From: Gonatopus flavifemur
Lineage: Eukaryota > Arthropoda > Insecta > Hymenoptera > Dryinidae
DNA length: 64,000 nucleotides
NCBI GenBank assembly: GCA_018340375.1
Contig: JAFFJZ010000006.1
Location: 24,248,001 to 24,312,000, forward strand
Direction: 5' to 3'
Part shown: positions 79 through 63,451 of the stretch, in pieces
How positions within the stretch are numbered: the stretch's first letter is position 1
Layout: the number at the start of each line of letters is the position of its first letter
The notes under the pieces: model-generated
Seen by the model: the letters and a program-made list of their open reading frames with translations, nothing else
Databases searched by the model: none
What the model was told of the DNA's origin: nothing
Position numbers and translations under genes: made by a program

Positions 79-560
79 AAACAACAAAATATCTTGGTCA
101 ATATGTGAACAACTAAAAACTTTTGTTACTTCAACCACACTGTAAAAAGGTTACATTAATAGTTAACAAATATCAATGTTATTCACACATAATAAATTAT
201 ATTAATAGTTATCTGATGATCTATCACCCTTTAATAAAATACATTATGAATGCCATAATATTTTTATTAATTACTCGTCATATTTATGTACAATTGATCA
301 TCACTTAACTATTAATATATATTATTATACATTAGTTCGGATTTCAAATTGAGATATGTTGACTATTAACGTAACCCTTTTTACAATGCAAGTTTGTATT
401 GTTCCAACAAAATCATTTTGCTACTAAATTTTCAATGAGAATATTTTTTACTCGCTATCGAATGTTTGTGATGCTCCAACAAAATAATAAAAACTTGGTT
501 GAAGTAACAATAAAAGATTTTGGTTGTTCACATATCAACCAAAATATTTTATTGTTTCAA
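79..560. repeat. Older foldback repeat interrupted by the hairpin at 138-388
   Basis: The left arm (about 79-137, containing GGTCAATATGTGAACAAC) is matched in inverted orientation by 497-560 (GTTGTTCACATATCAACC), with roughly 85-90% identity by eye. The outer end was not resolved because the window starts here; bases 391-496 form the loop. Confidence 0.6.
138..388. mobile_element. Type-1 hairpin MITE (CACTG ends), TSD CA
   Basis: The ends CACTGTAAAAAGGTTAC and GTAACCCTTTTTACAATG are inverted repeats (one change in the last five bases). They are flanked by CA on both sides. It is inserted in the loop of an older foldback whose arms are at 79-137 and 497-560. Confidence 0.72.
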
Positions 561-1926
561 CAAAGCACTCTTTCGATGCAACAACGTTGCATTTCTTATC
601 AATAATTCATTGGGATTCAAATGCGGCTGAGTATAATAATCGAATAATCAAGGTGATAAACCTCTTACGGATAAAATCAGCAATTTCAACTCGAGTGTTT
701 AGTTGCAAATAGAATGTTCATTTGATTCAGAGGAAGATAATGGAAAGGTGACAGATCAGCCTTCTCAAAACCATAGAAATGTTCTGAGACCATATCGGAG
801 ACGTGGATTACAATGTGCAGTATAACGATCGCGTTATGTAGCCATTGATTGTATTGTTTCGTAACAAAGTTTTGCACCTGTTGATAATAACGATGATATT
901 GATAATGACGGAGAACAACACATGAATCTCCTATCAGAATTCAACAACCACTGAGTGTTTGTTCGGTATCCGGCGACAATTAACTTTGTCTATTGCAAGA
1001 GGAGTGTTTTTGAAGATAAATCATATTCAATTTCAAATCTGGAATATTTTTTTTGGAGGAGGCAGTGCCGTCTTCCATAGTAAAGGGGCCCATGTAAGGG
1101 AATTTTTTTACTTTTGGAAATTTTAATGAATTATGAATATATCAATATGTTCGTTTGGCTGTGCAATTTGAATATCCATAGCTCATGTTTCACTTCTTTC
1201 CTTATCAACAATTCTTCCCTTGTAGAATTGACAGAAAATTGTGGTTTAAGGAGTCGGGGGGCCCTAAGCCCGACCCTACAAAGCCTATGCAAAAAGACGG
1301 CCCTGTGAGGAGGGATTGTTTCCTGGTGTGTGGGACTCACAGGACAACCGATTTATTAACTAAAATTCCCTCTCTTCTCCTCGAGGCAGGGCATATTATG
1401 AGGGTCAGTTCTTACCAAAAACTCAGTTCTGAAAGTGAACGACCAGTTCTAAAACTTAAAAACGGTTAGTTCTTAAAAAATTACCTGATTTTTAGTAAAA
1501 TGTGTTTTTTCTTTCTTTTTTTTGAATCGAATATCCAATATTGCTCTATTACAGGATGGTCCTTCAGGGATATTCATTCTGAAAAAATAATAAGATTTCA
1601 GGGGGGCATACCAATTAGAATTGTCAAAAAAATCGAATTTCCCCCATAAAAGGATAGGAAAACATCTCAAGCATATCCGTGAAAAGTTTCAAAGCGAAAT
1701 TCGGCCTCGATCCCATGCTACACTCATTTTTATGTTATAGACCGTATAGAGCGTCGAAATCGATTGTACGAGGAAGTTGAAGGGTTACGTCATGGTCCTG
1801 GTATCGCAGATCAACTGGTAAAATCCTCAATTCAAAAGATTCTTACGTTTCATTCGGTTTTTTGTTGTGCAAACTTCAAAGGCGTTTTCCCACGAATTGC
1901 ATTTTTCCAACTGGCGTGCGGAACTA

Positions 1927-2361
1927 CACTGTAAGAAATTTCCATCGGAAATTTCCTATACATGTATGTGAAGTAATTAACATATCGGAAAATTTCCATA
2001 CGTCGCGAAAGTGAAAATACTATCGTTGTTTCATAATTTTCCTATACATTTGTGGCAAAAAATATGTCACTGCACAACACCCGGCACTCAGGATCGAACC
2101 CGGGTCGTTCGGGTCGAAAGCGAGCACGCTATGACTTCAGCTGCGGCGCCGTGCGGGCATTTACTAACAACATTCAAGTACATCTTGTACGCGATTAATT
2201 TCTTTTCTCCGTCTCTTTGTCGGAAAATTCCGATGCACGTCGGATATCTAATAATAGTATAGGGGAAATTCATATACAGGTAATGGAATATGTATTTCCT
2301 ATACGTGATTGGAATATTCACATTCTCACGCGCAGGAAAATTCCGATTATTTTTTACAGTG
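1927..2361. mobile_element. Type-1 hairpin MITE with internal tRNA-like module, TSD TA
   Basis: The ends are CACTGTAAGAAATTTCC and the inverted GGAAAATTCCGATTA...TTTTTTACAGTG, flanked by TA. The interior repeats GGAAATTTCC-type palindromes and shares them with the element at 56849-57018. It carries a tRNA-like block at 2082-2158. The 147-codon open frame across it on the minus strand is best read as chance. Confidence 0.75.
2082..2158 (-). other. tRNA-like module
   Basis: On the minus strand it has an A-box-like GCCGCAGCTGAAGTCATAGC region and a B-box GGGTTCGATCC at a tRNA-like distance. The acceptor stem does not pair, so it is not a working tRNA gene. It sits inside the hairpin element 1927-2361 and may act as a relic Pol III promoter. 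Confidence 0.5.
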
Positions 2362-3730
2362 TACGCAGAAGTATTGATGCGATTATCATGAGGTTTTGCA
2401 CACAACTTCCTGAATTTCGAAGAATATGAGCCTAAATGGCTTTGAAAATTGCAATAAAAAAGTACTTTTTCATTGCACAAAACTAGCGGAAAATCGTCAT
2501 TTTTTGAACTTTTAATTATTACTTCAAACAAAATGCATAATTCTAATTGGACTGAGATTCATGTCGAGGAAAATGATGTTAATTTTGAGAAACTACTTGA
2601 TTTTTTTCATTTTGGATAAGAATTACGGTCGTTATCTTGCACTCAAACCAAAAAAATGGTCTCACACATCGAGCTGTAGGTCCGCCATCTTGGAAAAATT
2701 TTTTTTCATACACTTGAATGTACGACTAATGAATCAAAAAAGTTTGAAACAAATTTTCATATTCGTTCTACCTCTAAAAAATTCATTAAATTATGCCTTT
2801 TCAATTAATACGCCCCCCTTAATGCCAAAAGTAAAATTAAGGAAGCCCCACTGAAGATGAGAACGTAAGAAGGATATGAAGCGACGCGGAAAAGTCAATG
2901 AAACAGTATCTAAGCGTGAAAGAAGCGGGAATTAGAACATTTGACGCTTTATTCGCTCCAAACTTCGCCTCTGGCGAGTGGAAATTTTCAACAGGGAGTA
3001 TCAAATAATTCAAGAAATACTTGTCACACGAATGTTTTTCTTTTGTTTTTCTAGAAATTGAGTGTCTACCGTTTCGGTTAATCTCAAATTTCCTTAGAAT
3101 GTGCCCTGCATCGAGGGGGTCAGCCCGGAACCGTTTTTCACATTATTTCGGCCTGGCTCGTGTGGAAATTGATTCTTGGCGGCAGTTAGGGCCAGCCTAG
3201 GCGTCTTTATTATATTTTAGGTCCTGTTTTGGTTACCCTTATAGGGCCTAGACATGATTGTCACGCACTCATCTTCAGGGCCTGCATAGTATTCCCAAAG
3301 CTAATGCAGGTACTGAAACTAGGATCTTTAACAGGATAATGAATTGTTGCGAATATTATCAAATTGAAGGAATCATATTGCAAGGAGAGAATCCCAGATG
3401 GAAACTTCCTTGATGGAAAATTGGGCTATCTGTACCCAGATCGCTTCGACTTGAGCCCGAACAGGGCTTGGAATGGATCGATTTCCATTTCTACTCAGGT
3501 ATTCCATCCAACATTACTTTGTTTATACATTATCTGACTGAAAATTGAGATCTTCGGGAGAATACGGGGAGCTCGACAAGGCCCTATGCAAGCTGTAGTT
3601 GGTATGCCCAGATTTTCGAAATAGGGGAAAACTTTGGTGATGCAGCTTTGCCCCATATGGATCTTATATGGATGTCCCTGAGTTAGAGAAATCAGGCTGA
3701 ATATCAGCAATCTCACCACCAGGCCCCTTG
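2362..3730. other. Unassigned intergenic DNA
   Basis: I see no coding exon, RNA gene or bounded repeat here. A cluster of AGGCC/GGCCT words between about 3,170 and 3,330 and again at 3,540-3,780 looks like repeat remnant but has no clear ends. Confidence 0.3.
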
Positions 3731-6921: not shown

Positions 6922-6923
<2 letters not shown>

Positions 6924-11267: not shown

Positions 11268-11989
11268 GTAAGTGTCACATAAAGTCATTCTATGTATCGT
11301 TGGAGAGGTTAAATTTCGTTCCAGGAAAATATAATTTCTCAAACCAAAATCTAATTGTACGATCTGGCGAAGCGTCCCTCTCAAATCCTATTGTGGAAAC
11401 AAAAAAGCAATGGGGAGTGATTGGAAATGGAGTATGTTCTTGTCATTGGCCCACGATTGTTCCCTATTATTTGTTCTCATTTTTTTTGGGGATGATTATA
11501 AGATTTGAGGGATATATACCCGACTCGCAATGCTGCACTGTAAAAAAAGTTCCTCCTGACAATCTCAAAAATGTGACTGTAATTTTTTACAGCAACTTTT
11601 TTCTGAATTAATTGTCAGAAAAATATTGCTGAATTTCAAGGGTCGTCGAATTTGTGCCACTTGTGGTTTTAACCGGTTCAAACCGGCCTGGATTTTTTTT
11701 ATTAAATTCTGGCCAAAATGGTCAAAATGGTTAGAATAGAAATACAAATTGAGAAAAATGGAAAGAATGATAATACTAAGGAAAGGAATATTGTATTGTA
11801 TACTTGATTCAAGAAAATTTCTCTTGGCTTCACGCCATATTAGCTGCATTCAAGAATATATTTTCTTAGTATTAGTAGTTATTTCGATCAATGTAACACG
11901 TCGTTCAATAAATCCCGAGACTAACAACGGGAACAACATGTTTTTTTCAAAAATCATTTTTATTCATCAATATAATCTCCTTTTAGAAT

Positions 11990-12949
11990 GATATAATCTT
12001 TCCAACGCCTTCCTAACATTTCTATACCATGTTTATACAAGGATTTATCCTTTGCTTCTAAATAGGCTTCCGTTTTGGCAATGACCTCCTCATTCGAGCC
12101 AAATTTTTTTCCCTGGAGCATTTTTTTGAGATCAGCAAAGAGCCGCTAGAGAGTAGTCGCTGGGGGCTAAATCTGGTGAATATGGGATGTGGGGAAGCAA
12201 ATCAAAGTCCAACTCGTTGAATTTCGCCATTGTTTTCATGGACTTGTCATGCATGTTGCATTGTCTTGGTGAAGAAGGATTTTTTCTTCTTCATGTGCGG
12301 TCGTTTTGCTACGATCTCCTCCTTCAAACGTACCAACAAGTCGAGATAATAATCACTGTTGATCGATTTACCATTTTCCAGGTAGTCAATTGAAATCACG
12401 CCATGTGTATCCCAAAAAACAGGCGCCATGACTTTGCCAGCAGACTGCTGCGTTTTTGGACGCTTTGGGCGGCTTTCGCCTGTCATGCGCCACTCAGATA
12501 ATTGCCGATTCGACTGCGGAGTGAAATGATGTATTCATGTTTCATCCATGGTCACGTATCAACGCAGGGAATCATTTTTATTGCGAGTATATAGCGATAA
12601 ACAGCTCTCTGAATCGTCGACTCGTTGCTGTTTCTGTTCCACTGAAAGCAATCGCAGCGGCCACTTGGAAAAAACCTTTTTCATGCTCAATTTTTCATGA
12701 ATGATTGTAAATACGCTTCCAGATGATATCTGTGTCATTTGCGATTTTTCATCACTTTGGCCTAGACGAATGTTCCGCATCGTTTGTGTCCGTACGGCCA
12801 CGTTTAAACTCAGCATACCAACGACAAATCGTTGCTTCGGATGCAGAGGAGTCTGGGTAACGTTTTTCAAGCCATTGCTGGGCTTCTACGGTGTTTTTAC
12901 CCATCAAAACACAATGTTTTATCAACACGCGAAACTCGCTGTTTTCCAT
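11990..12949 (-). pseudogene. Mariner transposase pseudogene with frameshifts
   Basis: The N-terminus at 12949 reads MENSEFRVLIKHCVLMGKN, the start of an ant/bee-type mariner transposase. Later blocks sit in other frames: VFTIIHEKLSMKK and VEQKQQRVDDSE (about 12,600-12,720), then TGESRPKRPKTQQSAGKVMA (about 12,430-12,490). After a further shift comes the YSPDLAPSDY motif of the third catalytic region (near 12,170). At least three frame changes are needed, so no functional enzyme can be made. Confidence 0.88.
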
Positions 12950-13082: not shown

Positions 13083-13269
13083 CACGGAAAAAAATACCCC
13101 GGTTAATATATGGACAGCAAGAATTACTGCTATTTTAACCGGAATTCTAGTGAAATGAATCAAGTCTCCGGTAAATTTAACAAGAATTCCAGTAAAAATC
13201 ACAGATATTCCTTGCTGTCCATATAGTAACCGGAATTCTGGTAAAATTAACAGTTCATTTTTTTCCGTG
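13083..13269. mobile_element. Type-1 hairpin MITE inside the decayed mariner
   Basis: The ends are CACGGAAAAAAATACC and the inverted GTTCATTTTTTTCCGTG. The arms repeat CCGGTTAAnATATGGACAGC in inverted orientation. Both flanks read TACTA. Removing the element plus one flank restores a continuous mariner end (GGTACTAGCACCATCTCTGG), so it is younger than the mariner. Confidence 0.85.
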
Positions 13270-14103: not shown

Positions 14104-14333
14104 CACTCACAGAAAGGATTTCTTGAAATGAGAAAATTTTTCTTGTCGCTGGGACAAAACTCATTTTTTTTTCTTGAGCCTAGAAAATTTTACTTGAATC
14201 GAGAAAATTCATTTTGAAATCAAAACGAACTTTTTTCGATTGAAGTAAAATTTTCTAGGCTCCAGGGAATAATGAGTTTTGCCCCAGCGGCAAGAAAAAT
14301 TTTCCTCATTCCAAGAAATCCTTTCTGTGAGTG
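14104..14333. mobile_element. Hairpin MITE with CACTCACAG ends, TSD TG
   Basis: The ends CACTCACAGAAAGGATTTC and the exact inverted copy GAAATCCTTTCTGTGAGTG are flanked by TG. The arms continue (CCAGCGGCAAGAAAAATTTT against AAAATTTTTCTTGTCGCTGG) towards the centre, making almost the whole 230 bp a hairpin. The first bases of the window (TTTCTGTGAGTG) look like the end of another copy. Confidence 0.82.
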
Positions 14334-14498
14334 TGTGACTCTTATGCAGGGTGCATTATCAAATTGTCATGATGATCCTATAATTGCTCATTTTGTATCA
14401 GATCACCGACATCTTTATCTTATTTCTCCGACAGATGCGAGTTCCAATCAAAAATCAGCAGGATACTGTTTAAATCTGGTCAAACCCGGAGAAAACTG

Positions 14499-14759
14499 CA
14501 CGGAAAAAATACCCATGTAAAAATTACATGAAAAGTGAGGTAACGATTCCAGAGTGCATCTCGTGTAAAATTTACCACACAGTCCTGTTGGATTTACATT
14601 GTTATCATACTTCAAAGGAATGCTTCTCTCATTTACTTCGGTAACAATGTAAATATAGCATCGATTCCAATGTAAATTTTACTCCAATTGCATTTATGTG
14701 AGTAGTTATGTTAAATTGATAACAATCAATGTAGAATTTACATGAGACTTTTTTCCGTG
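14499..14759. mobile_element. Type-1 hairpin MITE (ATGTAAATT family), TSD TG
   Basis: The ends CACGGAAAAAATACCC and the inverted GACTTTTTTCCGTG are flanked by TG. The interior repeats ATGTAAATTTTAC-type palindromes. In reverse orientation it aligns along its length with 17586-18040, so these two are one subfamily. Confidence 0.8.
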
Positions 14760-14762
14760 TGG

Positions 14763-15315
14763 TATAGTGAAATATGGACGGACCGAACGATCGGTCACTC
14801 TACAATCAATCGCATCGTTATTCTAAGTGGACGCATCTTTGGTTTAAGGGAGTGCCCGGTTCGATTTTTTCCCTAGAAAACTACTAGATCGTTTCAACCG
14901 TTTTACGTCGTTAATATTCAATCAATTGTATTGATCTTTAGATCAAAATATTCAGAATCAGAGAGTCCGGCTCTGGTCTCAAAATACTTGAACATGGGCT
15001 ATGTTTTTTATAATATTAAAAAAACGAAATAGAGGTTTCTCATTGGCTAATAACGAAATTTCGTTGTAATTAATTATAATGACTTTGTTCAACAACAAAC
15101 AGACCAGAGCCGGATTGTTTGATCGATTCTGAATCTTTTGATCTAAAGATCAATACAATTGATTAAATATTAGCGACGTAAAACGGTTGAAACGATCTAG
15201 TAGTTTTCTAGGGAAAAAACGAACCGGGCACACCCTTAACCGAGCATATCGTAATTTCGATTGAGCCGTTTAGTTATTTTGATTGCGCAGTTGGGTCTGT
15301 CCATATTTTACTATT
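14763..15315. mobile_element. Foldback element with ATAGTnAAATATGGAC ends
   Basis: The left arm (14763-14967) contains AGTGCCCGGTTCGATTTTTT and GAAAACTACTAGATCGTTTC. The right arm (15110-15315) carries the inverted copies, with about 90% identity by eye over more than 110 bases. The end bases match as ATAGTGAAATATGGAC and ATAGTAAAATATGGAC. It directly abuts the hairpin at 14499-14759. There is no open reading frame of note. Confidence 0.75.
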
Positions 15316-17008
15316 CGCTTAGTGATTATCACTATTCCTTTTTCTCCGTGAAGAAGCAAAAGAACAGGCTGAGACACAATACGGTTGCAAAATACGTAGC
15401 TTCGTGTCTGATAATGAAGAAAAGATGAAAAAAATGTGGCAAGAATGAAAACAATATTATCGATCTAAATCAAAGATTTTTATTTCTTATGGTTGTGCAT
15501 CGCATTGAGATGAATAATAATCGATTGATTTCGCGTTCAAAAACTCAATATTTATATTTTAATTTCAACGAGTTTAATACCATGAAATTAATAGACTCCC
15601 TTCAGTATATTTTTTGAAGCGGTTTTTTTTTTAATTATTACACCATATGATTACTCAGAGAATAACTTATCGACACACATGATGGAAAATGCGACTGGAA
15701 AATGTATATTAATATATATAATAATTTTCAAGATGATGTAAAAGGATTTTATAGCTCTTTTTCAGTAGAGATGAAATAATTCAGACTTTTGTTGAATTCC
15801 ACTTATGAGAAATTAACAATGTTTTACTATCCACAGATACTAACTTTGAATTTCATCAATTTTTTCTCAATATTTCAGTTTTCTTGAATGAAGCTGAAGT
15901 GAAGCTAGCAGTCATTTGTTAGAAATGTTTGCACAAAACTTTTATCAAGGATTTGAGCATCCGAAACATTTAGTGAAACGCTGCTCGATCGATTTTTGGT
16001 ATAAAAAAAAGTTTCAACAACGTTTAATCAAAAGTTACAACGATCGAGGGACAGGCAGAATGATATACTTGGACCGAATTCGGGGTATAATTTTTGTATG
16101 ATTTGGTGTAATTTTTTATTTCAACCATTTTAGCTGGTTGAAACCAATTTTTGCCCCTGGTAAAGATAAAATCAAAAATTTCTCAGAATTTTTAGAATAA
16201 GCTCCGAAATGTAGTTGAAAAGTGGCTATGAAGAATCACATAACATCCAATACCTTTTACCATCGCTGATTTTGAACCATAGAAAAGGGCCAAGTTTGAA
16301 CAATTCTAACAAAAAACCTTCTACTCCACCATTGTTCCCTGAAGAATGATGAATTCACATATTTGGTATCATTTCGCATGAATAACTATCCTATGTTTGG
16401 AATTGGAACTCTTAACGGCGAATAAACAGTTTTGCGTAATGAATTTATAAAAAGAAAAAATTGTATCGTGAAATTGAGAATGCGACGAGTAGCGATATTC
16501 ATTTGGATTGTAATGGTGTTGCACGGTGGAATTGAAGCGAGACTAATTGAGTATCAAACCAGTGATAATGGATCGTTATGTATAGTTAATCACATCAAGA
16601 GATCATCCAGTAAATATTCAATGTTCCATGACGTGGCTTCTTCCCGTCGTAGAAATCGGGTAATGGACACCTGTATTTGTTCAATACCATCCATAGATTT
16701 AAATCCAACAACTGATACGCGAATTCAAAGAAGATTATACATTGTGTAATGTGTATGGATAACATTGCTCTTAAGATTTTCATGTTTTGCACAGACATGA
16801 ACTATACCGAGAAACTAATTTTATAAAACTCTTTGTTATTTGACGTAAAATCCGTGTCCCATTCAAGGATATAAATCGGTACAAAAATTGTGCAACATTG
16901 GGCCATAGTAGACGTCGTTAATTGATTAAATGCCCCTGTTGACACAGTAAAAAGTACAACTTACGTTCAAACTTGATATCGGCTTATTTTAGGATGTAGT
17001 CAGAACTA
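15316..17008. other. Unassigned DNA with one partial repeat copy
   Basis: About 15,898-16,050 is a diverged copy of the repeat at 17701-17891 (shared AAGCTAGCAG, TCAAGGATTTGAG, CTCGATCGATTTTTGGTATA). An open frame at 16432-16749 has a hydrophobic start (MRRVAIFIWIVMVLHGGIEA) but no splice or family support. Nothing else is seen. Confidence 0.35.
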
Positions 17009-17490
17009 CACGGAAAAAATGTTAGGGCTGAATCAATACAACAGTTTGTACTGAAAGAGTTCAAATGTAATTTGAACAGTAACAGTGCAACTTTTTGACT
17101 TGACTCGGTTGAAAAATTGAATTGTAAAAGTTCAAAACAACATCGAACTTTTATAATCACACGATGCGGGCTATTGAATCAAATAGTGTGACGTGAGAGA
17201 GTGCGGCGCTGCGTCGAACTGCGAGAGCTCAAGGGATCGGACTCTCAGAATACGAAATCTGTGACTCTGAGAGTCCGATCGCTTGAGCTCTCGCGGTTCG
17301 ACGCAGCGCCGCACTCTCTCACGCCAAACTATTGGATTTCATGGCGTGGATCGTGTGACTATCCGAGTTCAATATTGTTTTGAATTCTGAAGATTCAAAT
17401 TTTGAACTTGCATAACTTGCAAAAATAATTGAACTATTTCAGTTATATGAATTAAATTTCGAACTCTCGCAGTCCTAAATTTTTTCAGTG
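17009..17490. mobile_element. Type-1 hairpin MITE with GC-rich central hairpin, TSD TA
   Basis: The ends are CACGGAAAAAATGTTAGG on the left and TTTTTTCAGTG on the right, mixing the two end variants. TA flanks both. The centre (about 17,155-17,360) is a long, nearly perfect inverted repeat. Its arms contain GAGAGAGTGCGGCGCTGCGT and the inverted match, far more GC-rich than the surroundings. Confidence 0.8.
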
Positions 17491-17585: not shown

Positions 17586-18040
17586 CACGGAAAAAAGTCT
17601 CATGTAAATTTTACATTAGCTGCTGTGAATCTAACATAACTGCTCACATGAATGTGATCGGAGTAAAATTTACTTTGGAACCAAAGTGAATTAGATGAAA
17701 CTGAAACTGGCAGCCGTAGAGCTAGCAGCCGCTTTTCCTAACTCTTTATACACAGTTTTTATTCAGGATTTGAGGATCTGAAACGTTTGGTAGGTTGCTA
17801 CTCAATCGATTTCTGGTATAAACAAAGTTCCAATAACCTTGATTCAGAAGTCACAACAATCGGCTGCTAACTTTACGCCTGCTAGTTTCAGCTTTATGTA
17901 AATGAGAGAAGTGTTGCTGTGAATTACCTTTAATAACAATCTAAAAACAACAGGATTGTGTAGTCAATTTTACATGAAATCCACACTGTAATCGTTACCT
18001 GACTTTTCATGTAATTTTTATATGGGGATTTTTTTCCGTG
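17586..18040. mobile_element. Type-1 hairpin MITE (ATGTAAATT family) with nested insertion, TSD CA
   Basis: The ends CACGGAAAAAAGTCTC and TTTTTTTCCGTG are flanked by CA. It aligns in inverse with 14499-14759 except for an extra block at 17701-17891, which interrupts it. Confidence 0.8.
17701..17891. mobile_element. Repeat nested inside the 17586-18040 hairpin
   Basis: It begins CTGAAACTGGCAGCCG and ends CTGCTAGTTTCAG, an inverted match. It is absent from the sister element at 14499-14759, which marks it as an insertion. A diverged relative lies at about 15,898-16,050. Confidence 0.6.
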
Positions 18041-24513: not shown

Positions 24514-24787
24514 CACGGAGAGAACAAAATAGTACTGGGCTACTACGCCAGATAGTACTCAGTGACATCTGAAGTGAAAAAAATTTCAGATAGCATCCAC
24601 TACTATTCAAATAGTATCCAGTACAATCTACGTTATATTCAATGCTATGTCAGATTTTACTGAGTATAACGTAGATTGTACTGGATGCTATTTGGATGGT
24701 AGTGGCTGCTATCTGAAATGTTTTTTACTTCAGATGTCACTGAGTACTATCCGGTGTAGTAGCCAGTACTATTTTGTTCTCTCCGTG
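24514..24787. mobile_element. Type-1 hairpin MITE, near-perfect hairpin, TSD CA
   Basis: The ends CACGGAGAGAACAAAATAG and CTATTTTGTTCTCTCCGTG match exactly and are flanked by CA. The arms stay paired almost to the centre (AACGTAGATTGTACTGGATG on both arms). Its right CA is also the left CA of the next element (24790-25061). Confidence 0.9.
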
Positions 24788-24789: not shown

Positions 24790-25061
24790 CACTGAGAACC
24801 CGATTTCTTACACTTAAAGAAAATTCCTTTGCCCTCATTCTGATAAATCTTGTTTTCAATGGAGAAAATAATTCATCTTATTGAAGAAATTTGTCATAGA
24901 ATTGAAATCATATTCTTCGAATTTAAGAAAGAATATATTTTTTGTTCCAGTTTGATGAAACTTTTTTCCATTGAACTGAATTTTTGTCCATTGAAAAAAA
25001 GATTTATTAGAATTAAAGCAAAGAAAATTTTCTTTGAATCTAAGAAATTGGGCTCACAGTG
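24790..25061. mobile_element. Type-1 hairpin MITE abutting the previous one, TSD CA
   Basis: The ends CACTGAGAACCCGATTTCTTA and (inverted) CACTGTGAGCCCAATTTCTTA are flanked by CA. It is separated from its left neighbour only by the shared CA. The interior contains diverged foldback words (AGAAAATTTTCTTTGAAT). Confidence 0.72.
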
Positions 25062-25074
25062 CAGTGTGACAAGT

Positions 25075-25284
25075 CCCTGGTTAAAAAAAACCCATAGAAT
25101 CTGATGAAATAAAATTTAATGGGATTTAGTCAAAACATTGTACAAGATTCAATCAGAATCACATTGAAAAAAATACATTGATCTGATTAAATCTTATTGA
25201 CAAATGCTTGAATAGGATTTGGTTGGAACATTGTACAAGATTCAATGAGATTTGGCGGGAATCAATGATTTCGTTTAACCAGGG
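25075..25284. mobile_element. MITE with CCCTGGTTAAA ends, TSD GT
   Basis: The ends CCCTGGTTAAAAAAAACCC and the inverted GTTTAACCAGGG are flanked by GT. The interior repeats ACATTGTACAAGATTCAAT. A second copy of the family lies at 32496-32724. Confidence 0.75.
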
Positions 25285-25855
25285 GTATGTAATTTCTGTG
25301 AAGCGTTGTAAACAAGGGTTAACAGAAAATTTCTTGTGAAATTCAATATTCTCATATGAAATTTAATCAAGTTCTTGATTTTGATATAAGTTACGAAATT
25401 TCAGAATTTTTCATCAAAATGTAAGAAATTGATGATTAAATTTGCAAATATCTTATTAAAATGAAGAAGAAAATTCTCGTATAATTCAAAATATTTATTT
25501 ATCCACTCTCCATAAAATATTTATTTGTAAAAATTGAATATTCAATGAGACGCGAAAACTGATTACTTATGGCGAATAAATTATTTATTCGGAAGACCAG
25601 TTTATTTGGGGCAAGCATTCCATTATTTGATTCGATCAAATATTGCATGATTCCTAAGAAATATTTTTATGGAGAGAGGAGAAATCAACTATTTATTTGG
25701 TTGGAAGAAATTGTTTTTTCAGTGTATATCATTAAAATTGATAAAACGTAAAAACTTTCATAATAATTTTACAGTGTACTGATGATTGTTAGGGAGATAT
25801 TTTTCACGAGTAACATTTGGAATTATTCAATTAAAAAATGCGTTTATCAATTTAA

Positions 25856-36117: not shown

Positions 36118-36238
36118 TGCTGGTCAGCCACCTTGGAAGTCCACATATGTTTCATATTTAGAATACACAAAAAAAAAGACGAGGTGTGAATTTTCAGTTA
36201 CATTTGGCAAATTTTCAGGACCGTGCTAACAAAACTGT

Positions 36239-37732: not shown

Positions 37733-37736
37733 CAGC

Positions 37737-44547: not shown

Positions 44548-47500
44548 CTGAAAAAATACAAAATTGAAAATTCATTTCCTCGCAAAGAATATCCAAAGCA
44601 GTTTTTTCACTGTTCCACTCACCTGCGGATTCATACGATACAAGCACTTGTTCATGTTATAAATCGTATCGCAAGCATCAACGCCACCTGAAATATACAA
44701 AATAATGTTCAAGTATCTACATCGATTTTAGTCCACAACAGTGAAAAAAGTGCACCAAAAAGATCGACGGAGAGAAAGAGAAGGATATCGAGTCTTGTTC
44801 TTTCTTGGATGTTGAGCTGTAAACTTATTGAAAAACGTCAGAACGTCTAACGTGGTAATACAATTCGTGTCATCCTTAGGGATATCATTCATCTACGTGA
44901 CTTGAACAAAAGTTGCGTTGGCTTTTGATCACATCATGAAAATACAGTCGAGTGAATCTTGGTGTCGTGAGTTTCATTTATTCAAAAGTTCAAAGAAAAA
45001 AAAAGAAAAGAAACAAAAAGAACGCACTCGACTCGATACTCTTTTCCATTCTCATTTGAATCAATCAATCTAATGTTTCGCGGATAGTACAGTACAGTAC
45101 TGTACAGTGCACTACAGTATAATACATACGCAGCATACGTACCGGTTCTTTTTCATATTTTGTCATCCGAAAGTATACGAATACAATATGATACAAAATA
45201 TTTTTTCTAATATCTTCGAATATTGAAAATTCTATTCGTTCAAGTATACAACTATTCGATCAAATTCTTCCCCGAACGTAGAAAAATCCGTCAACGTGGA
45301 ATTTCAACGTGAGAAAATTTAATTAAACATTCCATATTTCTTTTGATGAATTTTCATATCGAATTCTGGTATCGGTAATTGAGAATGTTTTCAATTTACA
45401 GTATTGTTCGATTCATTCGTGTGTTTCTTCCGCAAAATAGAAACCATGTACAAAGTGATAATTAGTAATTAGAGAACAAAAATGAAAGGAACTCGTTCAA
45501 GTTTCGAGTTGGAGATGAATAAATTTTTGCTGCTGGGTAATAATCAATCGATCGATCGATCATCGATACCCGAAAGGGTTCGAACTTCAATGCTTACCGG
45601 TGTTTCTACACGCTTGAAACATGCTATCGACGTTTCCCTTTATACCTTCTGGCAGGACTGAGATGAACTTCTCGATGGTAGGAACGTTCAATGTGCTTGA
45701 ATTATCGGCCTATCGATGAAAATAATTTTTCATTTATGTTTGTAATGGTTGTGAATAATAGATAAATGGATATCGAAGGTATATTACCAATCCTAAACGG
45801 GTGAATATACATCTCGTGTAACATTCCAAATTTGAGTCTTCTGGAAATATTCCGTTCCTCAATCCGTCCACGAGACCTGTTCGATGATAAAGGATTTTAT
45901 TGATAAGTCGTGATGATATCATTTTTGTGATTTAATATTTACCCGGATTGGCTCCTGTGTCAGAAATGCACTGTGATCGTAAGTCTTGTGCCAATGATTC
46001 CACTTCGGGAGGTATGATCTGTACAAATCAATTATTCAATTTGATTCCAAGTTGTGGCATTTAGTCGGTGGATTTAGAGGTTGTTATACCAGGTTCAGTA
46101 TTATCAAATGATTAGGGAGAAAGAGAGAAAAAGAGATTCAAAAGCGGTCTGGAGATGACCTTTAATCGAATAACGATTGTTGAGTAATGCGTACGGAATA
46201 GAATCGTTCACTGAAACGAATTAATCATTGAATAACGAAATACTTAGAATCAAGCTCAGTTGAAGGTTAAAAATCTTGGAGCACATTCTTTCAACGATGT
46301 TTTCAATTTAAAGAAGTCAATTTAAGAAGATGAATAACGACGACTTATCATATTTTGTGAATTTGATTTACTCATTCAATGAATAGTTGAAATTTCATTT
46401 CATCTCATTCCCAAATATAAATGCTTCAATTATTCACAGACTTGTAACGCTGTGCTAGATGAAAACTCAAGTTAAAGCGATTATAAACGAGTTATAAACT
46501 GCACTGTTAGAAAAATCTGTCTTAAACTTCATAATATTATTGTTAAGTTCAAGACAGATTTTTCTAACAGTGTGATCCGAACAGTGCTATGTCAAGTTTT
46601 TGTCGTTGAAGCATCAAGAACAATTTAATTCAATCGATGTTCGTATTAACATTCATCCGAACTAACGTGAATTAATTCAAGAAATTCTTGTCTGTCAACA
46701 GAGTTGGAAAAACCGGTTGTTCACTTGTCAACTTTGTGGTAGATAGGTGGGTTTCAATGTTGAGATTATTCAAGACTCCTTCATGTGTCACTCAAAGAAA
46801 TCAGCAAATAACGGTTAGAATATTATTTACTTTCTCTGCGGATCGGACAAAGGGGATCAATAATACAATGCTAAAGTGGAATGAAAGAGACATGCAGGAG
46901 AAAGATTTAATTGTGATGGAGAGATGAATAAGTGCTGTATGCAAACCTTACATAACGGGGAAGCAATAAAAGGGAAAGATGATGAGGCTGAAAGAGTTAG
47001 TTACGCAATATTTCAATGATCTAGGGTTCTGATTTTCATACAGGGTGGTTCAAAATGTTTTTGATTCAAATGACATTTTTTTTAAGAATTCCCGGGAAAC
47101 AAATCGTTTCAGCTCGCATTCAATGATATACGTCACTGGTCGATTGATTAAAAGTTATCTAAGACAGCAAGTATCTTATCGCTGAAGGAGTTCCGGCTGT
47201 CTAATGCATATTAATGTTGATAAAAGTCGTTTGTCTCAGGAAGATTGACATGATAACACATGTTCATAAATGAATCATCGAGTGCGTGGGATCTCCGATG
47301 TACATAAGTAAATATTCCAATTTCAAAAGTTTAGAATGAAAATGAGAGCTACTTTATTAGTGATAATTCAATTTATCAACAGACGATCGTCAACGAATCA
47401 GTCCATCACAGAGAAAAAATGGTTTGCTACTATAGCGCCTACAAAGGAATTTGTTGGCTTTGAAAAAATATTCACTCCACCAGCTAAGACGTTAGTACTG

Positions 47501-49876
47501 TTAACAAATCTGATAACAATCCATCACAATTCAAGAGCGAAGCGCGTTACATACAGACGCTATACAGACCTTCTTCAATCAATAAGAATGGTCTGTACAG
47601 AGCGACACTTTCGTTTTACTGCTTTATTTTTTGATAATTCGTCAGAAAAGATTTGGCTCGGGTTGCATCGTTAGGAGCCACTGATATCCGCTTAATACAC
47701 GGAGAAAAGAGAATTCGCTATGACAGTGAAACCCGATTTTTCTAGGTACCTTTTGCTGGATCAGCAAAGTTCTTGCTGTGACAGCAATCTATTTGCTATC
47801 ACAGCAACCTTGTTAGCTACGACAGCAATTTCTTAGCTGTGGAAGCAACAAATTTTTGCTCCCCCAGCAAAATTTTGTTTGCTATTCTGTATATAATACT
47901 AAAAATTTTGCTAGTCCATCCAAAAATTTGCTGTTTCAGCCAATTATATTGCTCTCTCAGCAATTCAGTTAACTGCGGTAGCAAATTTTTAGCTGGGTTA
48001 GCAAAAAAATTTGCTGTCCTATATATAATACCTCGATTTGCTGCGTCAGCAAATTTTTTCTCTCCGTGTATGATGAAGATCTGAGCGTATACCCAGTAAA
48101 CGCTCGCACGTTTAAAAAACGTCAAAAACAGTCAATAACCACACGTTGTGAATTAGTAATATTCTTGCGTTGATTCAACGTAAAAATTTCGCGCCAGATC
48201 ACGTGTTTTTCAACCATAAAATAACGTCATATCAACGGTTTAAAAGACGTCAAATATTGACGCGTCCTGATGATGGTTTTAAAACGTGAATTGAATCCAA
48301 CACATTATTTTGAAAAACTTTTCATTCAATATCGAGAACAATAGTATTTCTGAGTATGACAAAATTTGGAAAGTATACCACACTATTTACTATCTTGCTC
48401 TTTGTTGAAATTTCAACCATTGTTCGGTTTCGTTCGACATTTTTAGCAGAATATCTTCAATTGAAGTTCAAACACAAGGTAGTGTTATAAAAACATTCTA
48501 AACGCGTAATTCAAACCCGTTCAAAACACGTTTGTTGAGGACGTCGTTTGATGGTTATTTTTGAATATCAGTTTAAATTACACGTCATCAAAACGTAATT
48601 CCTGGTTATGAAATCAACGACTGACGTCCGTTTGACAGTCTAATGTGTGCGTGTTTATCGGATAGCGAGCGGCGTTTAGAACATTAGAAGACGAGCGAAG
48701 GAGAAATATCCTTCTGAAGAATTTGATAGAAAACCTCAAAACATCTATCCGTAATTCAAGATCCAATCGGAAGAAGGAGAAAAAAAACAAAGCAAAACAG
48801 CAAATCGAAACAGTTTTGTTTGCAGATCATTACCGTGCAACAAAGGAGAGATAAAAATAACTAGAGGGAATCCTAATTTTCTTGCGTCAATTTTTCTCTA
48901 GTGACCCGAATGAATTCAAACATTCGAATAATACTCAAAGTTGCCGAGCTGATGTAACCTGTGATCTCTTTTACACCACTTGGGACGCTCGGCAATTTTC
49001 AATACGATGGGAAAAACAACATCCACTCTTTTTTTCAGCTCGCGAATGAAACGTAAATAACCCAGAGAATCATGGTACGTGAATATACGTCGGTAACTAT
49101 ATGAGGCGAAAGAAATTCGAAAAAAATATTCCACTGCGTTGACATTAAGTTGAATATATGTATATCTAAAAGATGAGTACGTAAAAGATGAGATCGCGCA
49201 AGGAACAGCTGTAAGCAAAATTTCTCCACGGTATTTTATAATAAAATACCAAGCTGAAGGAATATTTCAACCGGAGTTGAAAGCTCTCCTCGCGAGTGAC
49301 TGATCTTCAGAATAACTACGATACAAAAGCCCGAATACGTACATTGCGAATCAATTTCGGAATCTTTGGGAAAATTCTCATTTCATTGGAAATAAATATT
49401 TTCCGAGTTTCATAATAACGTTCTTCTAGCAAAAATCTAGGAAAACTCGTGAAAGAATGAGAATTTATTCACGTTGAGGGATGATTTTCAATGTCTCCAT
49501 GGATCATAAATTTTGAATAAAAATACAGTGATCGGTGCTGCAATGATATTTGTTGATAAACGGATGGGAAGAAAGGAAACCCAAGGTCTGAATGGAGGGA
49601 GAAAAATGTGAGATTACTGGTGAAATATCGAAAGCATTGAATCATATAATACTTGGAAAAAATAATCCTCTTATCGCCCTGAACGAAATATTCTCCCAAT
49701 TATTCATTAATTCTTCACAATTATCTTCGTATAAAATTCACGAAAATTGAATAAATCATTATAGTTATCAACACCTACCAATATGAAGGTACAAAATAAG
49801 AATTACTCACTGCACTGTGAACCGAAACCAACAACACCGTCATCGAGAAGACGAATAATTGGAATTTCATTTTCAT
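44530..49876 (-). CDS. Odorant-binding protein gene (classical six-cysteine OBP), six exons
   Basis: This gene encodes a small secreted carrier of the PBP/GOBP family, which binds hydrophobic odorants or pheromones in sensillar lymph or other extracellular fluid. Joining 49876-49811, 46018-45943, 45876-45788, 45709-45598, 44687-44623 and 44547-44530 gives 141 codons plus TAA, with GT-AG introns and consistent phases (0, 1, 0, 1, 0). Residues 1-22 form a signal peptide (MKMKFQLFVFSMTVLLVSVH...). Six cysteines follow with spacing C-X26-C-X3-C-X40-C-X8-C-X8-C, the classical OBP signature that supports three interlocked disulphides. The length is normal for the family and there are no stops. A TATA box lies about 100 bases upstream of the ATG and AATAAA about 95 bases after the stop. 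Intron 1 (about 3.8 kb) holds three transposable elements. The family call is firm; the orthologue is not identified. It may be nested antisense inside the Ig-domain gene whose exon is at 11158. Confidence 0.93.
44623..44687 (-). CDS. OBP exon 5: fifth and sixth cysteines
   Basis: The acceptor is TATATTTCAG and the donor is CCGCAG|GTGAGT. It encodes GVDACDTIYNMNKCLYRMNP and one more residue. C5 and C6 are separated by eight residues, as in classical OBPs. It ends in phase 0. Confidence 0.93.
45598..45709 (-). CDS. OBP exon 4: fourth cysteine
   Basis: The acceptor is TCATCGATAG and the donor is ACCG|GTAAGC. It encodes 37 residues from ADNSSTLNVP to FQACRNT and carries C4, 40 residues after C3. 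It includes the usual ILP/LPE-type segment (VLPEGIKGNV) seen between helices 4 and 5 of OBPs. It ends in phase 1. Confidence 0.92.
45788..45876 (-). CDS. OBP exon 3: second and third cysteines
   Basis: The acceptor is ATCGAACAG and the donor is TTG|GTAATA. It encodes the stretch with LECYTRCIFTRLGL, in which C2 and C3 are separated by exactly three residues, the most diagnostic spacing in insect OBPs. It enters in phase 1 and leaves in phase 0. Confidence 0.93.
45943..46018 (-). CDS. OBP exon 2: first cysteine
   Basis: The acceptor is TTTGTACAG and the donor is CCGG|GTAAAT. It encodes IIPPEVESLAQDLRSQCISD and six further residues in part. The PPE...LAQ...C pattern is the usual start of a mature OBP and carries C1. 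It ends in phase 1; the split glycine codon is completed by exon 3. Confidence 0.92.
46502..46572. mobile_element. Minimal type-1 hairpin MITE, 71 bp, TSD TG
   Basis: CACTGTTAGAAAAATCTGTC pairs perfectly with its inverted copy at the other end around a short loop, and TG flanks both sides. It lies in intron 1 of the OBP gene. Confidence 0.82.
47698..48068. mobile_element. Type-1 MITE built of TTGCTG/CAGCAA words, TSD TA
   Basis: The ends CACGGAGAAAAGAGAATTCG and the inverted CAAATTTTTTCTCTCCGTG are flanked by TA. The interior is a chain of short palindromic units such as TTGCTGTnnCAGCAA. Related material lies at about 61,590-61,980. It lies in OBP intron 1. Confidence 0.8.
48092..48662. mobile_element. 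CCCAGTAAACGC-ended element with ACGTC repeats, TSD TA
   Basis: CCCAGTAAACGCTCGCACG and the inverted end (CCGATAAACACGCACAC when complemented) match imperfectly. The flanks are TA if the last base is counted as mutated. The interior has many GACGT/ACGTC words. It lies in OBP intron 1. Confidence 0.5.
49811..49876 (-). CDS. OBP exon 1: signal peptide
   Basis: The exon has 22 codons starting at the upstream of two in-frame ATGs (M1 and M3). The upstream start keeps the Lys-rich n-region ahead of the hydrophobic core FQLFVFSMTVLLVSV. Cleavage is likely near SVHSA, at the exon end. The donor reads GCA|GTGAGT, phase 0. Confidence 0.88.
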
Positions 49877-52910: not shown

Positions 52911-53156
52911 CACTGAAAAAAAAATTTATTCCAGTCAAATAAATATTTATTTATCCTGTACCAAAGAAATATTCATTAGAATAAACAAAATATTCTTTGG
53001 AATAATTTATTTGAATTAAATAGATGGTTTTAATCGTTTATTTGATTCAAATAAATTATTTTGGTTCCAAAGAATATTTTGTTAATTCTAATGAATATTT
53101 CTTTGGTACAGGACAAATAAATATTTATTTGACTGGAATACATTTTTTTTTCAGTG
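52911..53156. mobile_element. Type-1 hairpin MITE, near-perfect hairpin, TSD TA
   Basis: The ends CACTGAAAAAAAAATTTATTCC and the inverted GGAATACATTTTTTTTTCAGTG are flanked by TA. The arms (TGTACCAAAGAAATATTCAT and its inverse) pair over about 110 bases. Confidence 0.88.
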
Positions 53157-54658: not shown

Positions 54659-55944
54659 CCAGGTGTGTAAGTATGAAACCGGAATTTGCCCATAGGTGGC
54701 GCTAGATGTCGATGCAGTTACCGACACATTACGTCAGCGGTGTTTTGTTATTGTATTGCTATCCGACAAAGATTTCCAACTCACAATAACACGAGTTTCA
54801 TTCAGTAGCATTAGTTTATTAGAAATAAACATGTCGAGTTTTGTGCCAACAAATTACGATTTGCGGACAGCACTACTTTTCTGTTTTCATCTGAAGAAAA
54901 CCGCAGTCGAATCGCATCGAATGCTCGTGGTGGCGTTTGGTGAGCATGCTCTCGGTAAAACACAGCGTCTCGAGTGGTTCAAACGGTTCAAAAGTGGCGA
55001 TTTTGACGTCAGGAAGGAAGAACGTGTAAGACCATCGAAAAAGTTTGAAGACGCTGACCTGCAAGCCTTGTTGTGCGAAGACGACGCTCAAACACAACAA
55101 CAACTGGTGGATCAGTTAAAGGTGACCCGAGAAGCCATCTTCCTTCGGTTGAAAGCCATGGGAAAGATACAAAAGGTGGGGAAATGGGTTCCACATGAAC
55201 TCAACGAAAGACAGCAAGAAAAGCGCAAAACATCATGCGAAATGCTGCTTGCCAGGTTCCAAAGAAAGTCATTCCTCCATCGAATTGTGACTGGCGATGA
55301 AAAGTGGATATATTTCGAGAATCCTAAGCGCAAAAAGTCATGGGTTACTCCGGGTGAACCATCAACATCGACGGCAAGACCAAACCGTTACGGACGAAAG
55401 ACAATGCTGTGTGTTTGGTGGGAACAGAAGGGCGTAATCTACTACGAGCTGCTGAAACCTGGGGAAACTGTCGATACTCAACGCTACCGACAACAAATGA
55501 TCGATTTGGATCGAGTTTTGCGTCAAAAACGACCAGAATACCAACAAAGACAACACAAGGTGATTTTGCTGCATGACAATGCACCAGCACACAAAGCAAA
55601 ACAGGTCCAGGAAACGATAGAGTCGTTCCGTTGGGGGATTCTTCAGCACGCGCCTTACTCACCGGACCTTGCCCCATTCGATTACTACTTGTTTGCATCG
55701 ATGGGACACGCACTTGCTGAGCAGCGCTTTACTTCTTACGAAGATGTACGAAAATGGCTCGATGACTGGTTTGCCTCAAAAGAGCAATAGTTCTTTTGGC
55801 GCGGAATCCACAAATTGCCAGAAAGATGGAAAAAGTGTATAGATAGCGACGGACAATACTTCGAATAAGTTACTTTGTATCATATCATTACAATAAACGT
55901 GTTTTTTCTGTACAAAAATTCCGGTTCCATACTTACACACCTGG
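54659..55944 (+). mobile_element. Complete mariner element, mauritiana (Mos1-like) type, 1286 bp
   Basis: The terminal inverted repeats start CCAGGTGTGTAAGTATG at both ends, with one mismatch over the next dozen bases. They are flanked by TA duplications (54657-54658 and 55945-55946). The total length of 1286 bp equals that of the Drosophila Mos1 element. The interior is a single transposase reading frame with one premature stop. The intact ends and near-intact frame suggest a recent insertion. It lies between a tRNA-like repeat (54121-54395) and unannotated DNA. Confidence 0.93.
54831..55790 (+). CDS. Mariner transposase, nearly full length, cut short by one stop
   Basis: The product is a DNA transposase that cuts and pastes the surrounding element at TA dinucleotides. 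I start at ATG 54831 (MSSFVPTNYD...), the family start. The frame also runs 45 codons upstream, but that part has no family resemblance. Residues 1-110 are the helix-turn-helix DNA-binding region. The linker motif WVPHEL is at 119-124. The catalytic triad is D156 (TGDEKW), D249 (LHDNAP) and D284 (34 residues after D249), the D,D34D arrangement at Mos1 numbering. YSPDLAP lies at 276-282. The frame ends at TAG (55788-55790) after residue 319. The next 25 codons stay in frame and match the family C-terminus (WRGIHKLPERW) up to TAA at 55866. A single nonsense mutation therefore removes the last 26 residues of a 345-residue protein. Confidence 0.92.
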   Translation: MSSFVPTNYDLRTALLFCFHLKKTAVESHRMLVVAFGEHALGKTQRLEWFKRFKSGDFDVRKEERVRPSKKFEDADLQALLCEDDAQTQQQLVDQLKVTREAIFLRLKAMGKIQKVGKWVPHELNERQQEKRKTSCEMLLARFQRKSFLHRIVTGDEKWIYFENPKRKKSWVTPGEPSTSTARPNRYGRKTMLCVWWEQKGVIYYELLKPGETVDTQRYRQQMIDLDRVLRQKRPEYQQRQHKVILLHDNAPAHKAKQVQETIESFRWGILQHAPYSPDLAPFDYYLFASMGHALAEQRFTSYEDVRKWLDDWFASKEQ

Positions 55945-56848: not shown

Positions 56849-57018
56849 CACTGTGAAAAATTTCTATGGGAAACTTCACATAAATGTTCGGAAGTAATCA
56901 ACACATACATGCGGTAGGAATTTTCCGTATTTAACCGGAAATTTACTGCAAAATGATAGTAAATATCCCATAAAGTTTGGAATTTATTTTCCGAAAATTC
57001 CGATTATTTTTAACAGTG
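56849..57018. mobile_element. Type-1 MITE, same family as 1927-2361, TSD TA
   Basis: The ends CACTGTGAAAAATTTC and the inverted GATTATTTTTAACAGTG are flanked by TA. It shares GGAAnTTTCC palindromes and GAAGTAATCAACACAT-like words with the first element but lacks its tRNA-like block. Confidence 0.75.
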
Positions 57019-57060
57019 TAGGGGCTGAAAATGAAGAATTTTGTATGGTAAGAATGCATA

Positions 57061-57506
57061 CACGGAGAAAAATGCAGCTCGGGAGAATAGTAATCTTCAA
57101 TAGAAAATTGGAGAATTTTTCTTAAGTTCGTAATGAACATAAACGGTTCAGATTTCTCTTGAATATTGCTCGAAAGACAATGGAAAATTATCAATACTTA
57201 CCAAATCATAAAAACAAATATGAAGTTTCCAAAAGTCGCGCATGAAATTTCACAAAGTGAATAACAAAATTCTGTAATTTGAAAATAGGATTTCAAAATT
57301 TTCTTATTTACTTTGTAAAATTTCATATTCGTTTTTATGATTTGTTAACTATTGATAATTTTTCATTGTTTTCCGAGCAATATTCAAGAGAAATCTGAAC
57401 CGTTTTATGTTTATTACGAACTTAAGAAATATTCTCAGATTTCAAGAAATATTCTCCAACTTTCTATTAAAGATTACTATCCTTCCGAGCTGCATTTTTC
57501 TCCGTG
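57061..57506. mobile_element. Type-1 hairpin MITE, 446 bp
   Basis: The ends CACGGAGAAAAATGCAGCTC and GAGCTGCATTTTTCTCCGTG are exact inverted copies. The arms stay paired through CTTGAATATTGCTCG and the inverse. The flanks are TA and TG, differing at one base. Confidence 0.85.
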
Positions 57507-61980: not shown

Positions 61981-62949
61981 CGTGAAAAAAATGCAAATAT
62001 TCTATTCGGAAAGTGAGTTTAAGAGACAAACAAATGTCTAGATATCTCTAGAAAGATGATTCCCAAACAACAATATCCATAACAAAACGTTATCACATAT
62101 CAAAGAGAAACAGAATTTCACGCTCTTTAATTTTCATGGAAAAAGACGAAGGTATAATTCGGGGAAGTCACTGGAGCGGCATGCGTATGAAATTTCCAGG
62201 AAGATATAACAATCTTTCTCCCAACGGAACTTTTAGAGATGTTCAAGGCCGACATGTTCTCTCTTTACACCAGGGACCAAGATCTACAGAGTCCTTTAGC
62301 AACTCAAGGATAGTGTCGACGTATATTCGTTTCAAATGAATTTCGCTCCTTACCTTTAATGTTATAGATATTTCAAAACGATTCCATCAGTGGAATGCTG
62401 TGGAGATGGCGAGTCATTTCAGGCATGAATGAGTTTAAAAGGTAAAATCAATCTGGTAATTATAAATAGCACTCATCATTATATTAATTTTTTGTAATAA
62501 AATTTAGAGAAAAGTAATTTCTGTTAATGAAAAGGTGACGAATCATCTTTACGGGACTGAATTCATCGTTCTACTATGTTCGTTGTTGATAGTTTTTACA
62601 TAAACTCTCATGCATTTAAAATTTTATTGTGGAAAAATGCGTATGAAAATGCATTTTGAAAATATCTGTACTGATATGTAAATTCCATTCAATACGTCTG
62701 TACGAAAAATAAATGGAAATACGGTTACAATTTAATTTACGTACGTATAGAATTTTTGTACAGTTTTTATATGGAATTTACTTTGAAAATGAATTGCATT
62801 GAAATTTCTGAAATTGTTCACATTTAATTAACAATGAATTAAATGCACGTTTAGTTGGATTTATCATTTCAATGAATCGATGTTTTCAATGAGAAGCAGT
62901 ACCTCAACATTGTAAAATTACCAAGATGGGAACAGGTTTCAATCACATT
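61981..62949. other. Unassigned DNA
   Basis: No gene or bounded repeat was seen. An open frame at 62136-62339 is unrecognised. Confidence 0.3.
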
Positions 62950-63170
62950 TACAGTTTCTTTCAGAGCGGTCTGGAAGGAATTTATAAAAGATTTGGTTCG
63001 ATTTGTTTTTGGGAAGGTTCTGTTTGAAATTCAAAGTTTGGTAAGGTTCAGGATAAAATCGGGTAGAAAGTTTGTCAGTTTTTGCCTGGATTACCTGGGA
63101 AAGGGAAACCATTTAAAGCCTGGCAAGAATTTCTTGTTCGGTTATGTCTGGCATTTTCAGTAGGGGCGTA
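62950..63170 (-). repeat. Dispersed repeat, copy 2
   Basis: In reverse orientation it shares AATGCCAGACATAACCG, TTTAAATGGTTTCCC and AGGCAAAAACTGACAAAC with 18,057-18,320. The end near 63,165 reads CCCCTACTGAAAATGCC, close to the CCCTAG end type. Confidence 0.55.
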
Positions 63171-63184
63171 TTCCGGTTCATGTG

Positions 63185-63451
63185 TACAGAAAAAAAGGAA
63201 TAGCTGCAGCAACTACTTAAATAGTCGATTTCCGATCACCTACTTAAGCAGTTGCTGCAGCTACTTAGTAGTCAGGACAAATAACACGTTAGCTGCTTCA
63301 ACTACCTCAAAATATCTCAGGTATTCACGTAAGTTAGCGCAACTATCGAGTTACTTGTCCTGACTACTAAGTAGCTGCAGTAACTGCTTAAATAAATGAT
63401 CGAAAATCGACTATTATAAGCAGTTGCTGCAACTATTTCTTTTCTTCCGTG
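63185..63451. mobile_element. Type-1 hairpin MITE (TTGCAGCAACTAC family), uninterrupted copy, TSD TG
   Basis: The left end is decayed (TACAGAAAAAAAGGAATAG); the right end is TTTCTTTTCTTCCGTG. TG flanks both. It matches 33043-34219 along its length but lacks the 900-bp pogo-like insertion, so it shows the empty site. Confidence 0.8.

Follow-up and report, generated by a model that had tools for sequence, protein, structure and literature searches.

The 64,000-nucleotide stretch of Gonatopus flavifemur DNA analyzed here, which we call the window (C359:24248001-24312000 in the 636-Mb assembly; eukaryotic sequence), harbors a set of short elements that end, in inverted orientation, with CACGG or CACTG (together CACKG) followed by an A-rich run, and that are mostly bounded on both sides by the same dinucleotide. 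We located them with an end matrix that does not require a hairpin, applied to the window and to 200 kb outside it; as the matrix was derived partly from the same stretches that it scanned, the finding of ends is aided, the flanks not being involved. The window yielded 18 end pairs, 14 of which carry equal 2-bp flanks of the pyrimidine-purine (YR) type (TA 8, TG 3, CA 3). TA/TA flanks enclose the CACTG elements at 1927-2361 (435 bp), 34422-34682 (261 bp), 35208-36777 (1570 bp) and 56849-57018 (170 bp), the CACTG hairpin element at 52911-53156 (246 bp), the CACGG elements at 13083-13269 (187 bp) and 47698-48068 (371 bp), and a CACGG/CACTG element at 17009-17490 (482 bp). CA/CA flanks are found at the CACGG elements 17586-18040 (455 bp) and 28172-28399 (228 bp, right end CATGG) and at the CACGG hairpin element 24514-24787 (274 bp, inverted terminal 20 bases identical), and TG/TG flanks at the CACGG element 14499-14759 (261 bp), the hairpin element 30869-31093 (225 bp, left end GACGG) and the shortest member, the 71-bp CACTG hairpin element 46502-46572. 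Laxer ends add 138-388 (251 bp, CA/CA, right end decayed to CATTG) and the hairpin element 63185-63451 (267 bp, TG/TG, left end decayed to TACAG), giving 16 matched elements; these two, 28172-28399 and 30869-31093 have one decayed end each. Three pairs have unequal flanks, namely 11536-12115 (TG/GA), 24989-25724 (TC/TA) and the clear exception 57061-57506, a 446-bp CACGG hairpin element with identical 20-bp ends and TA/TG flanks. The pair at 14485-15350, with AA/AA flanks and one CCCGG end, is probably spurious, and about 10 more strong ends stand without a good partner. The original prediction of about 23 elements, at least 18 of them matching, was thus near the mark but slightly generous.

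In a survey sample of 264 kb, made up of the window together with 10-kb pieces drawn at twenty evenly spaced points of the first 11.6 Mb of contig C1, CACKG followed by an A-rich run occurs at 111 sites, with TA (39), CA (23), TG (18) or CG (4) as the outer dinucleotide. Accordingly, the outer dinucleotide is YR in 84/111 of these ends, compared to 136/544 CACKG sites lacking the A-run, the latter being close to the YR background of ~23%. The 12-mer CACGGAAAAAAG has 3880 occurrences in the genome as compared to 234 for its reversed control, and at a matrix score of 14 we counted 70 ends in 200 kb of real sequence versus 5 after Markov shuffling. The end consensus, CACKGWRARAAA, was derived from the 66 ends of 33 paired elements, with base counts of CAC(T36/G30)G(A52/T14)(A/G)A(A/G)AA(A), and the consensus weakens beyond about base 12. 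Selection of these 33 from 44 strict pairs required CACKG, an A-rich end and matching YR flanks, such that the corresponding columns are fixed by selection; one of them, L018:8077-8955 (loci outside the window are given by L numbers), is doubtful as a true pair, aligning to an unrelated repeat from base 14 onward, though it is counted in the strict tallies. Base 4 (G or T) agrees between the two ends of one element in 31/33 cases. Of note, the base just beyond the duplicated dinucleotide shows a mild preference, with C at 26, A at 20, G at 15 and T, which is rare, at 5 of the 66 ends.

Equal flanks had been judged against a chance expectation of 1 in 16, which is the wrong null because each flank is already YR-biased. 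We instead dealt partners anew among the pairs. Pairing supported by a hairpin (z >= 3), carried out on the window, 200 kb of C1 and eight 3-kb loci chosen for a CACGG end, gave 61 pairs with equal 2-bp flanks in 34. When both ends had to show CACKG with its A-rich run, 36 strict pairs were left, and the 25 pairs with other ends thereby removed had equal flanks in only 3 cases. Among the strict pairs, 31/36 were equal (19 TA, 6 TG, 4 CA, 1 CG, 1 AG), whereas the re-dealt partners gave a mean of 13.9 and a maximum of 22 in 10,000 rounds. For the 47 matrix pairs, 18 from the window and 29 from outside, the corresponding values were 34 equal (18 TA, 8 TG, 6 CA, 1 CG, 1 AA), a mean of 12.4 and a maximum of 23 in 20,000; the pairs outside the window contributed 19 equal flanks, all YR (10 TA, 5 TG, 3 CA, 1 CG). 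The match is confined to the 2-bp register, with 0/47 pairs agreeing at 3 bp and 6/47 at 1 bp. A genome-wide tally of the kind that the original prediction had proposed, restricted to one 12-bp end type and one length class (CACGGAAAAAAG-N(200-230)-CTTTTTTCCGTG), returned 409 pairs, 344 of them with equal TA, CA or TG flanks (273 TA/TA, 41 CA/CA and 30 TG/TG; the other 65 lie outside these three classes), and the reversed pattern returned none. The A-rich ends, and the choice of a best partner in pairing, might suggest that A-richness combined with permissive pairing had produced the pattern as an artefact. This explanation is refuted by the shuffled and reversed controls and by the empty insertion sites described below, and we give it practically no chance.

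According to these data, the target rule is TA first and CA/TG second. We prefer this wording to the "YR steps" of the original prediction because CG is hardly used, appearing in 1/34 matched pairs and at 4/111 ends. The claim that TA, TG or CA is always duplicated likewise holds for most pairs but is too strong, given the unequal flanks, the CG case and equal non-YR flanks consisting of one AG, one AA (14485-15350) and one TT at L040:739-1367. The latter, a CACTG/CACCG end pair, is a possible non-YR duplication. Two further CACKG pairs with CA/CA flanks, L043:1256-2358 (1103 bp) and L041:6056-6291 (236 bp), both in the stretch C394:101001-117500, stand outside the tallies.

Empty insertion sites were sought for 38 insertions by joining 120 bp from each side, with a single dinucleotide left between them, and comparing the product with the sequence set analyzed. 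Junction-spanning matches were obtained for nine insertions, six of which were accepted. The relatives are paralogues rather than alleles (72-94% alike), and they lack the element and carry the dinucleotide once; the six insertions therefore reflect true 2-bp target duplications. TA is the target at 34422-34682 (empty relatives 37522-37735, 86% over 214 nt, and L024:1777-1990) and at 17009-17490 (L018:7014-6854 and L020:4880-5004). It is also the target at L020:4626-4865, where one weaker relative has CA, at L025:9206-9415, where the window element 63185-63451 is an uninterrupted relative and other relatives have CA or TT, and at L017:4065-4316, which lies within a tandem repeat and has one relative with CA. 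For 17586-18040, two relatives carry a single CA (L018:6950-6831 and L018:6687-6583) and the third, L020:4911-5026, is gapped at the dinucleotide; hence CA itself was targeted, as opposed to a TA that mutated later. Several of the targets are themselves hairpin elements, and thus the elements nest in one another. Three candidate sites were rejected, L011:4697-5079 for poor alignment at the junction, L025:3227-3484 as weak (73%) and L012:6446-6811 because it overlaps its own neighborhood.

The window also contains an open 364-aa frame at 54696-55790 that has, by eye, the look of a mariner transposase, with a close relative at L026:2791-3888. Considering these mariner-type frames and the predominance of TA among the duplications, the hairpins could be moved by a TA-targeting enzyme of another superfamily, such as Tc1/mariner, pogo or ISL2EU/PHIS. 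However, Tc1/mariner elements are not known to use targets other than TA, whereas CA or TG accounts for 71 of the 344 equal flanks in the genome-wide tally and the empty relatives of 17586-18040 mark CA as a true target, leaving such an enzyme a very improbable source of the insertions.

Behind their common ends, the elements differ widely. With the outer 16 bases removed, a blastn comparison at E <= 1e-4 sorted 33 interiors into 21 clusters, including 16 singletons and, as the largest, a cluster of 8, sizes that are inflated because overlapping or nested pairs were kept; 34 whole elements gave 25 clusters under a 40-bp rule. That interiors are unrelated between families, as initially proposed, is therefore borne out. 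One cluster is common to 14499-14759 and 17586-18040, another to 52911-53156 and L017:4065-4316, and 47698-48068 belongs to the largest. Inspection by eye of the sequences returned by the genome-wide tally shows one 12-bp end leading into two or more unrelated interiors, all of them present in several copies. The interiors are therefore replicating lineages, and the proposal of their free exchange lacks support.

Among folded elements below 500 bp, the ends pair with each other in 29/29 cases, with 58-94% of bases paired (no shuffle control). Nine of the 29 reach at least 90%, and five of these nine match only their own place in the sequence set compared, as might be expected if every new interior were produced by fold-back synthesis, as the original prediction suggested, or from captured host DNA, instead of descending from old lineages that diverged past recognition. 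Many elements, however, are only 0.58-0.75 paired, a level reachable by any sequence, and some interiors recur in several copies, so that we regard such origins as rather unlikely, albeit deserving some weight, and favor replicating lineages. Part of the spread in length is due to nesting. The longest window element, 35208-36777, encloses a second long hairpin (35653-36056) that is probably nested, as well as repeated CGGTAAATTTACCG-like motifs. L019:5790-6961, considered as a long parent element, proved to be a nest, namely a ~230-bp element holding a 944-bp foreign repeat (about bases 63-1006) that is present at 39 other places among 40 scored of 1069 candidates. The predicted size range of 71 to 1570 bp holds for both extremes, but is to be read with this nesting in mind. 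A precedent for unrelated interiors on very short common ends is maize Ds-l4/Ds1, where only ~11-30 end bases are common with the autonomous element and the inside is unrelated filler (PMC3260210). Ds-l4/Ds1 differs in belonging to the Ac/Ds family with its 8-bp duplications, and hairpins are not described for Ds in the part of that account at hand.

Being short, non-coding and of high copy number, with inverted ends and a target duplication, the elements have the structure of miniature inverted-repeat transposable elements (MITEs). CMC-type lineages mostly have CA..TG ends and 2- to 5-bp duplications (PMC12730594); here, CACKG at both ends provides the CA..TG termini, and the 2-bp duplication, supported by the empty sites, lies within that range. 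Judged by ends and target, the nearest known system appears to be CNEST, an active fungal element of Cryptococcus having CACGG ends, 2-bp TA duplications and a CMC DDE transposase that defines a new CMC branch together with unclassified animal proteins (PMC12810828). CACGG ends and the TA duplication recur in our set, TA/TA being found at 273/409 genome-wide pairs. In contrast to CNEST, a 7.2-kb coding element with 33-bp terminal inverted repeats (PMC12810828), the hairpins are non-coding, have a common end of ~12 bp and use both CACGG and CACTG. Other CMC relatives fit less closely. CACTA/EnSpm elements of plants and fungi resemble the hairpins in a CACT-type end that leads into an A-rich block, CNIRT6 beginning with CACTG and the plant end CACTACAAGAAAA (PMC7210773) lining up with the hairpin end CACTGWRARAAA. 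However, the fifth base is A in the plant end and G here (PMC7210773), and CNIRT6 makes 3-bp duplications (PMC12810828) as opposed to 2 bp here; with CACTG/CACGG ends in place of the CACTA core and 0/47 matches at 3 bp, the hairpins depart from CACTA/EnSpm in the strict sense. ESTA and Mirage, in the CMCT clade, resemble the hairpins in the CA..TG ends of most lineages, in short duplications and, for ESTA, in TA (PMC12730594), whereas the hairpins are known from non-coding elements alone, with no transposase to place.

We consider it probable that the hairpins are non-autonomous, MITE-like cut-and-paste elements sharing one type of transposase, a CMC-type DDE enzyme for which CNEST is the nearest known system. 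Such an enzyme would act in trans and would need little beyond the terminal CAC(G/T)G-W-R-A-R-A-A-A block in inverted orientation. It would excise the element and join it over a 2-bp stagger at TA, the preferred target, or at CA/TG, and gap repair after joining would leave the 2-bp duplication. Because so little end sequence would be required, many unrelated interiors, often long hairpins, could have become separate replicating lineages. On the evidence of their sequence, the hairpins seem to work like CMC elements; with no coding element found, they are putative members of the group. The resemblance to the CACTA/Mirage group noted in the original prediction was in this respect a good guess, as CACGG ends with TA duplication are those of CNEST (PMC12810828).

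Several results weigh against this CMC assignment. The search that the original prediction called for, for a transposase gene lying between CACKG ends, found none, be it of the DDE type with C(2)C and H(3-4)H motifs expected of the CMC group or of another type. The four long CACKG elements that we translated (in L006, L017 and L019, and 35208-36777) contain frames of at most 108 aa and gave no match to the Transposase_21 frames. DUF6589 (PF20231), our guess for a CNEST-like family, had no match here, a negative that says little because the domain was silent in all 14 control genomes too. CA and TG are used here, whereas CNEST is reported with TA alone (PMC12810828). Finally, Transposase_21 (PF02992), with 90 matches in the genome and none in the 14 controls, many of them in open frames of 500-859 aa, is associated with a different end where one could be read. 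We examined twelve such places, nine loci of 3.4 kb (L030, L031, L033-L039) and three of 8-8.5 kb (L040, which contains L032, L041 and L042), one of the latter extended to 16.5 kb. An element end was legible at two of the twelve (L041 and L042), one end each, and both are CCCTGG (CCCTGGTAAAAA).

The 859-aa frame of L041 is accompanied by a left end, CCCTGGTAAAAATACCGG, preceded by TA, and by ~177-bp arrays on both sides. Taken with L044 and L043 (C394:101001-117500), it has the make-up of a TRC-like CACTA element with inverted ~177-bp repeat arrays. An end of this type also occurs in L042, at 7747 and oriented toward the frame there, and by their sequence both elements can be classed as TRC-like in the sense of DeMarco et al. 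(PMC1636069). Animal TRC elements such as SmTRC1 make 2-bp duplications (PMC1636069, PMC4298943), like the hairpins, and the Transposase_21 matches document TRC-type enzymes in this genome. These enzymes could cross-mobilize the hairpins as bearers of a sibling end, given the many long open frames and the likeness of CCCTGGTAAAAA to CACTGTAAAAAA. Yet TRC elements have CCC ends (PMC1636069), those of this genome being CCCTGGTAAAAA-ended, whereas the hairpins have CACKG. The two ends resemble each other but differ at base 2 and beyond base 5, and of the 19 places with CCCTGG-like ends listed in the sequence analyzed only 5 have YR outside, near the 23% background, versus 84/111 CACKG ends. We therefore reject the Transposase_21 elements examined as direct parents of the hairpins and retain their cross-mobilization as an unlikely rival to a CMC-type, CNEST-like enzyme.

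More tentatively, and with somewhat less than even confidence, we propose that this enzyme represents an insect CNEST-like CMC lineage with ~12-bp recognition, a relaxed TA > CA/TG rule, dozens of independently founded lineages of passengers and tens of thousands of elements, the last figure being an extrapolation from 19 matched pairs in 200 kb to ~60,000 in 636 Mb. If so, the set would amount to a natural experiment on how little DNA suffices for a CMC transposase, with hairpins as possibly favored substrates. Elements agreeing only in their ends allow natural variation to define a minimal end, and the set yields a clean target-site rule, with TA used most, CA/TG next and CG rarely. In this way, a single transposase type can serve as the heading for many of the small hairpins in an insect genome, which an annotation of repeats based solely on their interiors would scatter over dozens of unclassified families. 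Fungal and animal CMC elements are understudied, and the animal relatives of CNEST are unclassified (PMC12810828). The set is large and diverse; CMC-like elements and short-end passengers as such are known already. Among the titles and abstracts returned by searches of the open-licence literature, none describes such an element set in an insect, which is weak evidence of novelty.

Several further features were noted. A 98% hairpin at 37224-37407 has CACAGTAAAAAG ends and TA/AT flanks, and its L018 relatives supply the empty sites for three CACKG insertions. A separate hairpin family with GAGTTTTGTAACGC-type arms is present at 34776-34949 and L033:2536-2742, and also upstream of Transposase_21 matches in L031 and L033; hairpins near the transposase genes in L033 and L034 were set aside as having other end types. 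The 814-aa frame of L040 matches Transposase_21, with DUF1258 and Plavaka under their cut-offs, and no element ends were seen within its 8.5 kb; PF06869 co-occurs with PF02992 in many relatives. A 521-aa transposase-like frame (L010:7504 to 10906 of L010+L029) was rejected as coding partner, since its element seems to have inverted TTTTGAGYCACTRAATT ends and it has no Pfam match; its insect relatives are numerous, and a Cotesia bracovirus record names one relative. The best-scoring named relatives of two transposases of this genome come mostly from Hymenoptera (Wasmannia, Neodiprion and Leptopilina; Microplitis, Cotesia and Venturia), which points to a host that is probably a wasp or a related insect. 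Rfam microRNA matches to the hairpins all stay under their gathering scores, none reaching it in the window; those at 14123-14314, 30907-31055 and L025:9187-9434 likely arise only because the hairpins are long palindromes.

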